The notes below the pieces were generated by a model. It saw nothing but the letters and a program-made list of their open reading frames with translations. It searched no databases and was not told the origin of the DNA. A program made the translations under genes and the position numbers. Positions 39,106-44,604 of a stretch of DNA of 64,000 nt are shown in pieces. The DNA comes from a virus. The first letter of the stretch is position 1. Every line of letters starts with the position of its first letter. The stretch spans positions 1 to 64,000 of the IMG/VR virus record IMGVR_UViG_3300028563_000022; one strand, 5' to 3'.

Positions 39106-39983
39106 GCTGCTTTCCTCGCGTCTCTGTATTGTTCCCATGTGGTCGTCTTATAAGCGGCCTTCATGTTCACCCACCGGGCGAACGCCTTTTGCTCCGGTTC
39201 TGGTTCCGCATTGGTTGTGAAATCCCTGTACGGCTGGGCGAACGGATCAAGGTCCATGCCCTTGAGAAACCGAATCCGCTCCAGCGCGTCAGGGATGTCC
39301 TTTACCAGCGTGTAAACAAAGTATCGGCGGGGGGTTACGTTGTGCCAGCGCAGGAGCGTTACGGCCTTCTGGATGCTCTCCATCTGCCCTTTGCGGTCAC
39401 AGGCCAAGCGCAGGGGAGACAGCCACTTGAGGGCTGCAAGCCGGCGGGCGATCCCATCATCAATCAGCCGTGCGTCTAGGCCCTGGTTGAAGTCTACCTT
39501 GACCCCAAGCCGGGCCATCTTCTCAATCTGCTCAATCCCGTGAGGGTGGGCCAGGACGTTGTTGTCCATGAGCACCACATCCTTGTGGGCCAGGAACTCC
39601 TCAACGTCAGCGTGTGGCCTGATCTGTCCTTCCTTGCTGGGAACGATGCACCAGGGACAGGCGTTGGGGCATCCACGGGTCAGGAACCCCTGCGAGTGCG
39701 TGGAACTGTAGAGCCCGTAGTCAGGCATGGAGTGTTCAGCTTCATCCGGCAACCACGTTTCCAGGCCGTAGCCAGTGCCCCCACGCTGCACACCGCTGAA
39801 AAGCTGCTGATCCTCTGGAGTCCAAGTGAACACCTTGGAAGAGTAGACCATATCCGCCCACAGCAAGGGCTCGTACCACCCCACGGTGTCTCCCTTGGCC
39901 TTGTGCCAAGCGGACAGCTTCATAAGGGCCAAGTTGGGAAACTTGCCCCCGTCTGCATCGTGTAGGTGGATTAACAGGCTCAT
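39102..39983 (-). CDS. Radical SAM enzyme
   Basis: A 293-aa protein with the radical SAM cluster motif CxxxCxxC in TRGCPNACPWCIVPSKEG (about residue 105), then a TIM-barrel-like pattern including VVLMDNNVLAHP and VDFNQGLDARL. Enzymes of this class use a 4Fe-4S cluster to start radical chemistry; phage examples can modify DNA bases, nucleotides or RNA. It is coupled to the polymerase and DUF1937 genes by 4-nt overlaps, suggesting a role in nucleotide or DNA modification. Confidence 0.8.
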   Translation of the reverse strand: MSLLIHLHDADGGKFPNLALMKLSAWHKAKGDTVGWYEPLLWADMVYSSKVFTWTPEDQQLFSGVQRGGTGYGLETWLPDEAEHSMPDYGLYSSTHSQGFLTRGCPNACPWCIVPSKEGQIRPHADVEEFLAHKDVVLMDNNVLAHPHGIEQIEKMARLGVKVDFNQGLDARLIDDGIARRLAALKWLSPLRLACDRKGQMESIQKAVTLLRWHNVTPRRYFVYTLVKDIPDALERIRFLKGMDLDPFAQPYRDFTTNAEPEPEQKAFARWVNMKAAYKTTTWEQYRDARKAA

Positions 39984-42900
39984 TTTTTGTACCTATTTGC
40001 ACGGTAGCCCTCGGCAGCAATCGGGCACCCAACGGCCCAAGCCGGAGGCTCGGACATGATGGCCTCGTATTCCTCGACCGAACCGAAGCCGATGGGCACC
40101 TCAGACACCGCTTCGTCATGGACATGGATGACCGGGGGATAGCCGTGGTCTTCCAAGCGAATCAGGGCGTCGGTGAGGATGTCCCGGCTGGCTGCTTGGG
40201 TACAATTTTCGCATAACAATCCACCATATAGATGATGCGGCATGAATTTATTTGTCATGCTATCAAGACCCCAAAACGTCACCACAGCCTTCTTCTGGCC
40301 CCAGGGGGTTTCCTTCTCTTTGACATCAGGCTTGTAGTAATGGAGGCACCGGCCGCTGGGGAGTTTGCACCGGAGGAACCGGCCATCGGACAGGTACTTG
40401 ATGCTCCGATAACCCCAGACCTTCCCCGGCTCGCGCACGGCATTGATGCAGGCCTCTTCCAGCCCAGCCCAGAGAGCAACGATGTACGGACGCTTCTGGC
40501 GCCAGAGCTGCTTGATTATGTCGCAGGCAGTGGCCGCGTCGTGGGACATGACTCCGGGGTTCTTCTTGACGTAGTTGAGTGCGGTCTTGGTGGCCTGTTC
40601 CATGACTCCGTAGGGGGTGAGGGGGAAGATGTGTTCTGGGAGGGATTCGAGGTCTATGCCATAGTTCTTGGCCATGGCCGCGTAGGCTCCAACGCCTCCT
40701 TGGTACCCACAGTTATGGACGAGGCAATCGGAGACTGTGAACCTGTTTCTTTGGCCAGCGTTCAGGATATCGTATACCCGAGCTGTGCGAGTCGGAGGCG
40801 TATCCTCTCCCAGCCCTTCCGTTTGTCCAGAACTGCTTTGTACGCCAAACCTATGATGGCCTCCTTCGGATACCCCGCCAGAAGATACTTGGTCGTTCTC
40901 CCGAGACTGTAGGGGCTGCTGGTCGTCGCCCATTCTGCATCGGGGGTAGTTATCTTCGATCGGCGTTGGTTGCGCTGATTCTCCCTTCTGGTAATGTACC
41001 GCAGGTTCCCCGGCTCGTAATGGCCATTGTTGTCTATCCGATCCAGTTCCATCTCCCTGTGCAGCCCCAAGGTTTCCTGAATCCAGAGTGCAGCTTGCAG
41101 AACTGTGGGGAACTTGAATTGAATCCCCCTGGCGCCGTAGTTCGGCCAACCTTGGTCCTTGGTGTTCTGGCATCGACTCTTTGCGGAGGTCATCCGTTTT
41201 GTGAGCCAGAGCGGAACCCTCCGAGGTTGAGAGCACGCTTGACAACCTTTGCTTATCCCCCGAGTTAAATTGCCTAGAAATGTCCAGCCCGTTTTCCCAC
41301 ATCCTGTGCAGCGAACAGCCACATACACTTCCGCCCAACCTCGGTGGTATCTGCGCTCCGGGGATATTATCTCCACCCACCCGTAGCGGCGTCCCACCTG
41401 CTCCTGATTGAAGGAGATGTTGTCCGCAGGAGGCGGCGAATCCAAGCTGTACTTGCTGACATTCCCCGAGGATGCCGGGACTGGCCCACACGGTATGGTC
41501 TTCTGTTGCTGTGAGACCTTGGTAAGTAATAACGGAACGAATACCCCTGGAAATAACACCATCATGAGCAACGAACGCGGTTCCATCCCACACCTTCATG
41601 TTAATTGTGACGTGTTGGATAGGAACAAGTCCAGCATCAGTTAAAACTTGTTCGTCTTCAGCGATACATGCGAGTTCTACTGTCTTCCCGATCTGCCTTT
41701 CTGCTTTCGTGACTTCCGGGGCAGTCTTGTTGAACATCTGCGCCGCAGCTATTTTGTATATGTCCTGCTTGTTCCAAAATGCCTCAAGCACGGATTCTTC
41801 CCCTGCGATCCAGGCGTTGACCCGGGCCTCGATGGAGGAGAAGTCCGCAGAGATGAGGTCATGGCCGGGCTTGGCTATCAGCATCCCCCGGATGCACGTT
41901 GACGCCGCCCCAAGGGTGTCCTCGAAGAGGGTGGTGAACCAGTCATCGAACCCGTTCTCGTGGGCTGCTGCTACGCAGTGTTCTATGTCAGAAAATAGGC
42001 CACGCGGGAGATTTTGTGGCTGGAATATGCGGCCACTGAATCTTCCCGTGGCTGCGCCATGATACCTCATCGTCCCCCTGATACGTCCATCCGAGGACGC
42101 GGCCCGGCGCAGCGCGTCATACTTGGCCGTGCTGGCCCGGCCGAGCTGCTGGCGTATCTCCAGAAAGCGTCGAGCATGTTCTGGCAAGCCCCCCCTCATT
42201 AAGGCCTCGGCCACGCTGTTCTTGGTCAGGTCCACCAGCCCCACACCCATCAGGGCCAGCCACTTCAAGCTCTTGTCAATCTTCTTGGGGGAGTCCACCG
42301 CGCCGCTGGTCAGGACCTTGGTCTCAGCGAGCAGCTTCTCCTCGTACTTTCCGATCTCCAAGATGAAGACATTCACCGAGGCCTGGTCAATCTGTATGCC
42401 CCGGGCGTTGATCTCCTGGTCCAGTTGCCACACTTTAAGTTCGGATGCAGGAAGGTCGGGAAGCGCCTGGGATACCGCGTGCTCCGTCTCAACGTCCTGG
42501 AGGCAGTATTCACACAGGCGCACGATGTCTTCGGGCTTCTCGTGCCAGAGGTAATACGCAGGAGCGCCATAAGGAGGCTCGATCATTCCATCGGGTTTAA
42601 CCAGACATCCTGCTGCCTCAAGTTCCGCGCGCTCCTTCTTCAGCGGTTTCCTGGGCTTGCACATTTTCATCATGAGCCGGTTGCCGGCCATGTCTTTCTG
42701 GATGGGGAGCTCCAGGGCCTTGGCCGCCTGGTCGAGAGAGCGGGGCAGGGCGTGGTAGGCACACTTGGCCAGGGAGCAACGGAGCTTCTTGGGGTCAGGT
42801 TCGGGCCAGCCATACTTGCGGGTGGCACACCAGGACCAAACCGCGCGCTCGAAGCCCGCGTTGTGGCATTCAATTTCGTCGGCCTTGCGGAGGAGGTCAA

Positions 42901-43126
42901 AAAGGTCATCATCCTCCAGAATTTGGTCCGCAAAGTCAGTGCCTTCTGGCGGGTCTGTGCGCAGGATGCGCTCGGCCCATTCAGGCACCCAGATTCTTGG
43001 CGTTCCGCCATCCACTTTCACGGCGCAGCACATGATCTCTGTAAAAGGGTGTTCGGCGTAAACCCACTCGCCACATTTCTTCAGATCGCAGGGGCTTCGG
43101 GTTTCGTAGTCCAGTGTTAAGCGCAT
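39980..43126 (-). CDS. Family A DNA polymerase with intein
   Basis: A 1048-aa precursor; removal of a 319-aa intein leaves about 729 aa. The N-terminus has a 3'-5' exonuclease motif (LTLDYETRSP). Polymerase motif A is LISADFSSIEARV, motif B is RQIGKTVELA/CGYQGG, and motif C is VIHVHDEAV. The intein sits exactly inside motif B, between A and C. ATG 43126 overlaps the methyltransferase stop and follows AAGGA; the frame extends to 43177. It would be the phage replicative polymerase. Confidence 0.92.
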   Translation of the reverse strand: MRLTLDYETRSPCDLKKCGEWVYAEHPFTEIMCCAVKVDGGTPRIWVPEWAERILRTDPPEGTDFADQILEDDDLFDLLRKADEIECHNAGFERAVWSWCATRKYGWPEPDPKKLRCSLAKCAYHALPRSLDQAAKALELPIQKDMAGNRLMMKMCKPRKPLKKERAELEAAGCLVKPDGMIEPPYGAPAYYLWHEKPEDIVRLCEYCLQDVETEHAVSQALPDLPASELKVWQLDQEINARGIQIDQASVNVFILEIGKYEEKLLAETKVLTSGAVDSPKKIDKSLKWLALMGVGLVDLTKNSVAEALMRGGLPEHARRFLEIRQQLGRASTAKYDALRRAASSDGRIRGTMRYHGAATGRFSGRIFQPQNLPRGLFSDIEHCVAAAHENGFDDWFTTLFEDTLGAASTCIRGMLIAKPGHDLISADFSSIEARVNAWIAGEESVLEAFWNKQDIYKIAAAQMFNKTAPEVTKAERQIGKTVELACIAEDEQVLTDAGLVPIQHVTINMKVWDGTAFVAHDGVISRGIRSVITYQGLTATEDHTVWASPGILGECQQVQLGFAASCGQHLLQSGAGGTPLRVGGDNIPGAQIPPRLGGSVCGCSLHRMWENGLDISRQFNSGDKQRLSSVLSTSEGSALAHKTDDLRKESMPEHQGPRLAELRRQGDSIQVPHSSASCTLDSGNLGAAQGDGTGSDRQQWPLRAGEPAVHYQKGESAQPTPIEDNYPRCRMGDDQQPLQSRENDQVSSGGVSEGGHHRFGVQSSSGQTEGLGEDTPPTRTARVYDILNAGQRNRFTVSDCLVHNCGYQGGVGAYAAMAKNYGIDLESLPEHIFPLTPYGVMEQATKTALNYVKKNPGVMSHDAATACDIIKQLWRQKRPYIVALWAGLEEACINAVREPGKVWGYRSIKYLSDGRFLRCKLPSGRCLHYYKPDVKEKETPWGQKKAVVTFWGLDSMTNKFMPHHLYGGLLCENCTQAASRDILTDALIRLEDHGYPPVIHVHDEAVSEVPIGFGSVEEYEAIMSEPPAWAVGCPIAAEGYRANRYKK
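40712..41668 (-). mobile_element. Intein in polymerase motif B
   Basis: The intein starts at Cys (codon 41668-41666; block A CIAEDEQVLTDAGLVPI), has block B GLTATEDHTVWA with the conserved Thr and His, and ends with block F ARVYDILNAGQRNRFTVSD and block G VHN followed by Cys +1 (codon 40711-40709). Splicing would restore ELACGYQGG. The 319-aa frame contains no in-frame endonuclease; between blocks B and F it is low-complexity, because that DNA encodes an HNH protein in another frame. Confidence 0.88.
40762..41586 (-). CDS. HNH homing endonuclease nested out of frame in the intein
   Basis: An open frame lying wholly inside the intein but in a different reading frame from the polymerase. From about 41421 it encodes a typical phage HNH protein: QVGRRYGWVEII, Cys-rich VRCTGCGKTGW ... 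KGCQACSQ, then MELDRIDNNGHYEPGNLRYITRRENQRNQR, the H-N-H core. The upstream part of the frame (residues 1-50) looks like a shadow of intein coding. The true start is unclear; GTG 41397 has AGGAG only 3 nt upstream. Its end overlaps splicing block F. Confidence 0.8.
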   Translation of the reverse strand: MEPRSLLMMVLFPGVFVPLLLTKVSQQQKTIPCGPVPASSGNVSKYSLDSPPPADNISFNQEQVGRRYGWVEIISPERRYHRGWAEVYVAVRCTGCGKTGWTFLGNLTRGISKGCQACSQPRRVPLWLTKRMTSAKSRCQNTKDQGWPNYGARGIQFKFPTVLQAALWIQETLGLHREMELDRIDNNGHYEPGNLRYITRRENQRNQRRSKITTPDAEWATTSSPYSLGRTTKYLLAGYPKEAIIGLAYKAVLDKRKGWERIRLRLAQLGYTIS

Positions 43127-44604
43127 TTCAGTTCCTTCATCCTTGCGAGCACCATGTTTATGCGGCGGCCAATCCAACGGACAACCGGAACCGCGAAACT
43201 GTTTCCTATTGCTTTGTATCGTGGTCCATCAGGACAGAGTTCAGCAGGTTTTCCGCGCCATGGAATAAGTGTGTGGTTGCGGGGCATCCCCTGCAAAAAC
43301 TCGCACTCGACTGGAGTTAATCTTCTCACTTGCATGGCGATGACACAGCAGGGCGCGGCGTCGCCGCGCCCTGTCTTCCCCGCCTCGGCCTTCAGCGCGT
43401 TCACGATCCCGGCCGGGCCTCCGCGGTCATTGCGGGCGAAGCGCGGCTCGAAGGTAATGGCGGGGGGATGCACTCCGGCGGCCAAGGGGTGGCAGGGGTC
43501 GCCAGGCTTTGGATTGCACCTATTCGTTGCACTGGTTATCTGCGTGGTGTCAAAAGCCACGGCCACGGAGTTCTTGCTGCCCATCGAGGGTGAGAGGTCT
43601 TCCGTGCTGGCGCATTGCGTACCGGACAGGTTGGCGGGAAAGGCCACCGGAACCAGAGGCGTGCCCCGGCCGGTTCCATCCTCAGAGGCATCGAAGCCTT
43701 CGCCGCGAAGGCTGTGCGTAACGCAGAAGGTTTCGCTCTCGAAGTCCAGCCTCCCATGCGGTCCCGCATGGGAGGTGCGCGCCGTGGCCACGTCAATGGG
43801 GCCGGAGCAGTTGTTGCCACCGAAAGCTACGACTTGGAGGCTGTCACAGGTATCTACATCTGTCCCATAGGGTCGGTCCCCTCCGGTGTTATTGCCGCCT
43901 GCTCTAACGCACGGTGCAGCATCTCCGGCAACTTCTTTCCCCGTTTCTCGGCTCGGCGCAGAATCCCGGCGCAGGCCTTCGGACTCAAAAAGAATCGGGG
44001 GTCTATTGGACCAGTCTCCAAAATCTGCGAGAGCGAACACGCGGCGGCGTCGTTGCGGAACTCCGAAGAACTGTGCGTCCATACAGCTCCACTCTGCGAA
44101 CCCGTCAGGGCCGATAGCAACTCCGGTGTTTTGCCACCCTTTTTCTGGAATGGGGATTCCGCAGCCAACCATTTCTCCAAGTACAGCCGCAAAGTCTGCA
44201 CCTTGTTTACTGGAGAAGAGGCCGGGGACGTTCTCGATGAGTAAGAACCGGAGGTCGCAATGCTTACGGGCAAACCGAACAATATCCATAGCCGTAAAGA
44301 ATAAACCACTGCGGGTTGGGGTATCTGTTTTAGCATCAACAAGTCCTCTTCTATTTCCGGCGACGGATAAGTCCTGGCAAGGAAAGCCGCCTACTATAAG
44401 ATCAACGTGGCCGAGCTGCTTTACCCTTTCCTCGGTGATCTTGGTGATGTCCCCGAGGTTTGGGATGTTCGGAAAGCGATGGGCCAATACCGCAGAGGGG
44501 AAGGGTTCTATCTCCGCGAAAGCCACGGCTTCCCACCCCAAAGGTGCCCAGGCCAACGTGGCGGCTTCTATGCCACTGAACAGGGACAAATACCGGAGGC
44601 CCAC
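43117..44604 (-). CDS. C5-cytosine DNA methyltransferase
   Basis: A 495-aa enzyme. Motif I is LSLFSGIEAATLAW, motif IV with catalytic Cys is GGFPCQDLS, motif VI ENV, motif VIII QRRRRVF, and the C-terminal motif X is AIGNSFAVPVVRWI. A long segment between motifs VIII and IX (about residues 215-420) is Gly/Thr-rich and probably forms an enlarged target-recognition region. No restriction enzyme is nearby, so it likely protects phage DNA from host restriction. It overlaps the polymerase by 10 nt. Confidence 0.92.
   Translation of the reverse strand: MGLRYLSLFSGIEAATLAWAPLGWEAVAFAEIEPFPSAVLAHRFPNIPNLGDITKITEERVKQLGHVDLIVGGFPCQDLSVAGNRRGLVDAKTDTPTRSGLFFTAMDIVRFARKHCDLRFLLIENVPGLFSSKQGADFAAVLGEMVGCGIPIPEKGWQNTGVAIGPDGFAEWSCMDAQFFGVPQRRRRVFALADFGDWSNRPPILFESEGLRRDSAPSRETGKEVAGDAAPCVRAGGNNTGGDRPYGTDVDTCDSLQVVAFGGNNCSGPIDVATARTSHAGPHGRLDFESETFCVTHSLRGEGFDASEDGTGRGTPLVPVAFPANLSGTQCASTEDLSPSMGSKNSVAVAFDTTQITSATNRCNPKPGDPCHPLAAGVHPPAITFEPRFARNDRGGPAGIVNALKAEAGKTGRGDAAPCCVIAMQVRRLTPVECEFLQGMPRNHTLIPWRGKPAELCPDGPRYKAIGNSFAVPVVRWIGRRINMVLARMKELKCA

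Follow-up and report, generated by a model that had tools for sequence, protein, structure and literature searches.

In textbook inteins, the homing nuclease is an in-frame domain. A conserved site of nuclease insertion between splicing blocks B and F is discussed in PMC6801210, and the work of Dassa et al. (2009), as cited there, describes fractured genes, in which split inteins have a free-standing nuclease gene between their halves. Out-of-frame HNH nucleases are known from the ShiLan-type insertions of phage DNA methylases (PMC11855218, 2025), for which neither a splicing domain nor a ribosome-binding site is reported. This ShiLan-type nuclease is the closest published relative of the locus analysed here. 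Our literature search found no description of an intein whose nuclease is out of frame, although a preprint on non-canonical actinophage inteins may cover it.

The window, the whole stretch of 64,000 nucleotides that we analysed, makes up most of a 64,276-base viral record. It very probably contains a mobile intein that is overprinted, in another frame, by its homing nuclease, and we regard this as the best explanation of the locus as a whole. The polymerase gene and its intein comprise the following features.

39980..43126, minus strand: PolA-family DNA polymerase precursor gene (N-extein, intein and C-extein), 1048 aa; Pfam DNA_pol_A 4.9e-22, PHROG DNA polymerase 2.8e-96
40712..41668, minus strand: 319-aa intein in the polymerase frame, between ELA and CGYQGG; identified from blocks A, B, F and G, AlphaFold, Foldseek and intein-free alleles
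41609..41668, minus strand: splicing block A (Cys1; CIAEDEQVLTDAGLVPI); alignment, with C1, L9 and G13 invariant
41483..41518, minus strand: splicing block B (GLTATEDHTVWA); alignment, with T55 and H58 invariant
40712..40783, minus strand: splicing blocks F and G (RVYDILNAGQRNRFTVSDCLVHN); alignment
40799..41398, minus strand: intein linker in the polymerase frame, predicted disordered and overprinted by the nuclease; AlphaFold pLDDT about 45, residues 91-290

The preliminary description had placed a 319-aa intein in the polymerase, and its coordinates and minus-strand assignment proved right, with all four splicing blocks intact. The polymerase sequence reads ...GKTVELA before the intein and CGYQGG... 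after it. Residue 1 of the intein is a Cys (41668-41666), block B includes TATEDHTVW, block F is RVYDILNAGQRNRFTV, and block G is CLVHN followed by C, so that in the window a penultimate His precedes the final Asn319 (40714-40712) and the +1 extein residue is a Cys. The element therefore has the N-terminal Cys, the TxxH of block B, the C-terminal Asn and the nucleophilic +1 residue of an intein. AlphaFold models residues 1-89 and 291-319 at a pLDDT of about 95 as a confident HINT domain, for which the best Foldseek matches are inteins (AceL NrdHF, NpuDnaE, gp41-1 and Ssp DnaB) with probabilities of 0.99-1.00, at E-values of only 3.6e-3 and weaker. Intein-free alleles at the same site (L082 and L086) run uninterrupted across it. 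Insertion in motif B is particular to the polymerase site; the same intein family also occurs in helicases and other genes. The polymerase frame of the window is unbroken, rather than divided into two genes as in a split intein. Read in the polymerase frame, the central part of the intein resembles nothing recognisable, and the region between blocks B and F is predicted to be disordered; the missing in-frame endonuclease was a point of the preliminary description, and the HNH protein does lie in the +1 frame. Directly upstream of the polymerase is a DNA cytosine methyltransferase-like ORF (43117-44604), the 3' end of which overlaps the polymerase start by about ten bases.

The nuclease occupies two nested intervals.

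40762..41586, minus strand: HNH nuclease ORF, +1 frame relative to the polymerase, wholly within the intein, 274 aa; PHROG HNH matches, prophage homologues, stop avoidance in both frames
40762..41430, minus strand: conserved HNH protein, a zinc ribbon (4 Cys) followed by the DRIDNNGHYEPGN catalytic motif; alignments, AlphaFold pLDDT 87.6

The complete HNH ORF that had been noticed inside the intein is thus borne out by PHROG HNH families (up to 1.2e-19) at a +1 offset; curated Pfam and NCBIfam families gave no match. It shares 52% identity with the nested HNH proteins of other prophages, and the part homologous to other HNH proteins begins near 41430-41400. Alignments show invariant C41, C44, C63 and C66 and motif columns 130-142 (a DRIxNNGHYExGN-type motif), that is, an HNH-type catalytic motif with a DNA-binding module, and the window copy retains all four zinc cysteines and the complete motif with no stop. 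The AlphaFold model of the protein is confident (mean pLDDT 87.6); a Foldseek search of this model against the PDB gave no significant match.

Both frames are open by more than chance; the preliminary description had noted that they stay open for over 800 nt. Neither coding frame has a stop over the window's HNH core, where the third forward frame has 8; across 22 loci, stops in that third frame number 7-23 per locus. With a +1 overlap, any HNH codon ending in T before AAN, AGN or GAN creates a stop in the polymerase frame. None of the 43 window junctions at which a synonymous T was possible carries it (11.6 expected), and in the 22 loci intein-frame stops occur at 0 of about 1,070 risky junctions, where 375 are expected. 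For stop avoidance, single AT-rich loci alone reach a probability of about 1e-15; a probability summed over loci is not to be taken literally, because related sequences are not independent. When the window HNH was synonymously re-coded, the polymerase frame opened in 1 of 20,000 trials. A chance ORF was rejected on the third-frame stop counts and these trials. Comparison of substitutions among homologues, as the preliminary description had proposed, gave HNH-frame changes in close pairs of 38, 25 and 159 at codon positions 1, 2 and 3. These changes fall mostly at the third position, and the nuclease is therefore under ordinary purifying selection; that position is the first of the intein frame, so the linker sequence is free as long as its frame stays open. 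Judged by stop avoidance and substitution pattern together, both reading frames are under selection.

The family search covered viral and genome collections and phage records, with the HNH protein, the polymerase and the N-terminal part of the intein as queries. It yielded 115 distinct inteins (the window and 114 others) with the HNH in +1 and a fully open host frame, and about 8 with the HNH in +2, made up of 4 tallied and the cultured phages EP23, SO-1, Ent3 and MR14. L201, a mini-intein with an unrelated downstream HNH, was left out of the +2 count. There were 11 split inteins overlapped by an HNH and about 10 mini-inteins. None of the related distinct inteins tallied has its HNH in the intein frame; the sole row scored so (L186, Salmonella phage SS3e) was discounted, since the frames of that record are broken and its close relatives are +2. 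The layout recurs in more than 100 phage inteins and is therefore a real, largely unrecognised mobile-element design.

Intein hosts are PolA, ResIII/DEAD helicases, a DnaB-like helicase and, for the +2 form, terminase, and the sources include prophages or phages of Streptococcus, Gardnerella, Anaerococcus and Peptoniphilus, a Vibrio phage and Caulobacter phage RW. The terminase intein of Streptomyces plasmid pS1D4-14.2 (L277:2001-2834), with its HNH in +2, is annotated in RefSeq as an HNH and a truncated terminase, not as one intein-containing gene. Roughly 145 Salmonella phage records match the intein, and the two checked closely (LP31 and Ent3) have the +2 form. At the same PolA site, the start of the intein is 57-70% identical to that of the window, whereas the adjoining N-extein is only 38-44% identical, and this excess of intein over extein similarity between distant hosts points to horizontal movement of the intein. 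No exact DNA match was found for a sibling or an empty allele of the window phage, nor did blastn find close relatives of it. Three other arrangements were seen. One polymerase ORF has a uracil-DNA glycosylase domain fused ahead of PolA, and the overprinted intein is present (L028:1312-5409). Another locus has two serial inteins, one split with its HNH in +1 and one unsplit with its HNH in +2 (L181:1125-2995). A Hyphomicrobiales contig (L112:3902-5129) carries an out-of-frame HNH ORF within a 1691-aa ORF, in which no intein was detected and which resembles a ShiLan-type insertion.

How the nuclease is translated can be read from the distribution of stops. Upstream, +1-frame stops occur at the expected rate (290 against 263 expected), but over the stretch that begins 24 codons ahead of the conserved HNH Gly there are 0 where 39 are expected; translation therefore enters before that point. 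A start at the [M/L]V codons just before this Gly, with GGA directly upstream, was considered and rejected because the absence of +1-frame stops extends further upstream than these codons. Between blocks A and B lies an intein motif, KEVIxY[DAEG], which many members spell AAGGAGGTNAT...TATG, placing a Shine-Dalgarno (SD) sequence within the Lys-Glu-Val-Ile codons and an ATG across the TAT Tyr codon and the next G. The SD energy at these ATGs averages -7.1 kcal/mol, compared with -1.9 kcal/mol for the remaining ATGs of the +1 frame, and the motif Tyr favours TAT over TAC (37:14, compared with 132:158). Of 63 representatives, 42 have an ATG between blocks A and B whose SD reaches -5 kcal/mol or better (null 3.9%), and 17 have one whose SD reaches -10 kcal/mol or better (null 0). 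About a third of representatives lack a strong SD-ATG in the tested interval. Other members have an ATG in [DNH]-Val codons or just past a late in-frame stop, and an ATG with an SD of -6.0 to -7.7 is present in each of the +2 phages L100, L101, L188 and L272. An SD-ATG is also found in 3 of 11 mini-inteins, which may be recent deletion products.

The window copy is without the strong SD-ATG of its relatives. Since TACCAA stands where the TATG would usually be, its start is a matter of candidates only, the best of which appear to be ATG 41586 and TTG 41571 (-5.5); TTG 41445 (-0.2) is a further one.

41584..41586, minus strand: candidate HNH start ATG of the window copy; AAGG (41596-41593) at 6-nt spacing, weak SD of -3.9 kcal/mol

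The missing canonical SD-ATG would also suit a window nuclease that is an unexpressed relic, about to decay into a mini-intein, and the Streptococcus phage Javan422 exemplifies such decay. The window HNH, however, keeps its four zinc cysteines, its full catalytic motif and a stop-free frame, and has the alternative ATG with AAGG at six bases; we consider a relic rather improbable. Another route to the protein would be +1 ribosomal frameshifting after block B, giving a fusion of N-extein, N-intein and HNH. This would accommodate the lack of +1-frame stops that begins about 24 codons ahead of the HNH core, and the fact that some members have no start codon between that point and the core. Yet a search for a conserved slippery site or programmed +1 site recognised none, the members that lack a start codon there, such as L114, L126, L132 and L142, have an ATG further upstream in the same open frame with an SD of -6 to -12 kcal/mol, the late in-frame stop generally precedes an ATG or GTG by two to three codons, and the excess of SD-ATGs over the null is very large. 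Frameshifting is accordingly a distinctly unlikely source of the nuclease, and internal initiation, to which the family-wide start signals point, is most likely the means by which the HNH is expressed. The preliminary description had offered both routes to a separate protein; the first of them, internal initiation, is favoured across the family, and for the window copy it comes down to the candidate starts above.

An indel was the other concern. The window phage is known from one assembly, and an old record of a related phage, SS3e, appears broken into polymerase, HNH and polymerase, as might be expected if a sequencing or assembly error had displaced a nuclease that is truly in frame. The 115 distinct inteins, drawn from environmental, prophage and finished genomes, nevertheless share the same +1 offset with both frames open. 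The preliminary description had named such an indel, or homologues with an in-frame nuclease, as grounds for abandoning its reading; we found nothing in support of the former and 0 of the latter against 115 in +1, and we give the indel hardly any credence. Intron HNH genes often overlap exon frames, and the insertion in Sodalis phage SO-1 (gp38/gp39, L275) is annotated as a type I intron with an intron ORF. A group I intron is nonetheless a vanishingly small prospect here, as the host frame has splicing blocks and a HINT fold and is kept stop-free, and a search for an intron RNA core gave no Rfam match at an E of 1 or better.

The relatives of the overprinted intein also include reduced and divided forms. 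Mini-inteins have 1-8 stops in the +1 frame. The 169-aa intein of Javan422 (L269:1501-2007) has intact splicing blocks and a truncated out-of-frame HNH; most of the HNH has been deleted, yet the polymerase frame is still open, and by its sequence this intein is a decay intermediate. In the split branch (PolA inteins L027, L031, L032, L175, L176, L179, L180, L182, L183 and L184), the overlapping HNH gene contains the end of the N-half ORF; the C-half begins at a start codon of its own immediately ahead of block F, in most cases an SD-ATG. This suggests a possible route from single-chain to split inteins. The HNH tree places nested forms in no fewer than two separate positions among the free-standing HNH proteins, and one of these positions holds both +1 and +2 forms; two is a rough minimum because several tree supports are weak. 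The PolA inteins of phage APSE-7 and Caulobacter phage RW (L270 and L271) have an HNH of a different lineage, also in +1, likely an independent capture. We lean, with some reserve, towards regarding overprinted inteins as a distinct, widespread and recurrently evolved class, in which HINT inteins took up two or more HNH lineages out of frame, at two offsets, and translation signals for the nuclease evolved within splicing-domain codons, and which bridges mini-inteins, full-length inteins and fractured split inteins.

The preferred explanation, a mobile intein with an overprinted nuclease, draws on the open and selected frames, the HINT fold, the nuclease motifs, the start signals embedded across the family and the excess of intein over extein similarity. 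Ribosomes in the polymerase frame would yield a precursor that contains a HINT intein and an extended disordered loop; the intein is expected to splice itself out of this precursor, leaving an intact polymerase. Ribosomes starting within the intein, at a start codon in the intein codons ahead of block B, would instead translate the +1 frame into a separate zinc-ribbon/HNH nuclease. This nuclease probably spreads the intein: in co-infection it is expected to cut intein-free polymerase alleles, and repair would copy the whole unit in. Selection preserves both the nuclease protein and a stop-free polymerase frame through it. In this explanation we infer splicing, internal initiation in the window copy, DNA cleavage and homing, and it is a fair inference that homing is separated from splicing. 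Two functions would be drawn from the same bases in two frames, and the dose of nuclease could therefore be set by translation initiation, independently of splicing. The family offers a natural example of overlapping genes whose origin, maintenance and loss can be traced in relatives (mini-intein, overprinted, decayed and split), and it implies that the annotation of phage genomes overlooks nucleases, among others in the Salmonella phage records matched by the intein.

The locus shares features with each of the known systems. Like PI-SceI-type full-length inteins, it has a HINT domain with a nuclease between blocks B and F; in those inteins the spliced-out protein carries the nuclease as an in-frame domain, whereas in the window the nuclease would be a separate, out-of-frame protein. 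The fractured genes, as far as they are outlined in PMC6801210, likewise have a nuclease that is a separate product between intein halves, and one branch of the family (L027, L031, L032, L175 and others) is split in this way, but the window and 114 other members have a single unbroken intein frame through the nuclease gene. Salmonella Jerseyviruses and Dhillonviruses (vB_SenS-Ent3, LP31 and EP23) also have a PolA intein with an overprinted HNH, and the intein is annotated in Ent3; in these phages, however, the HNH is in +2 and no HNH feature is annotated. The ShiLan-type insertions resemble the window in that a zinc-finger HNH is encoded in a different frame of the inserted DNA and the host frame remains open, and in their sporadic distribution. 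They differ in that the ShiLan insertion is thought to stay in the protein, whereas the window nuclease is surrounded by a HINT intein and so by the splicing domain that ShiLan-type insertions lack, and in that most relatives of the window have an SD and ATG for the nuclease, of which none is reported for ShiLan.
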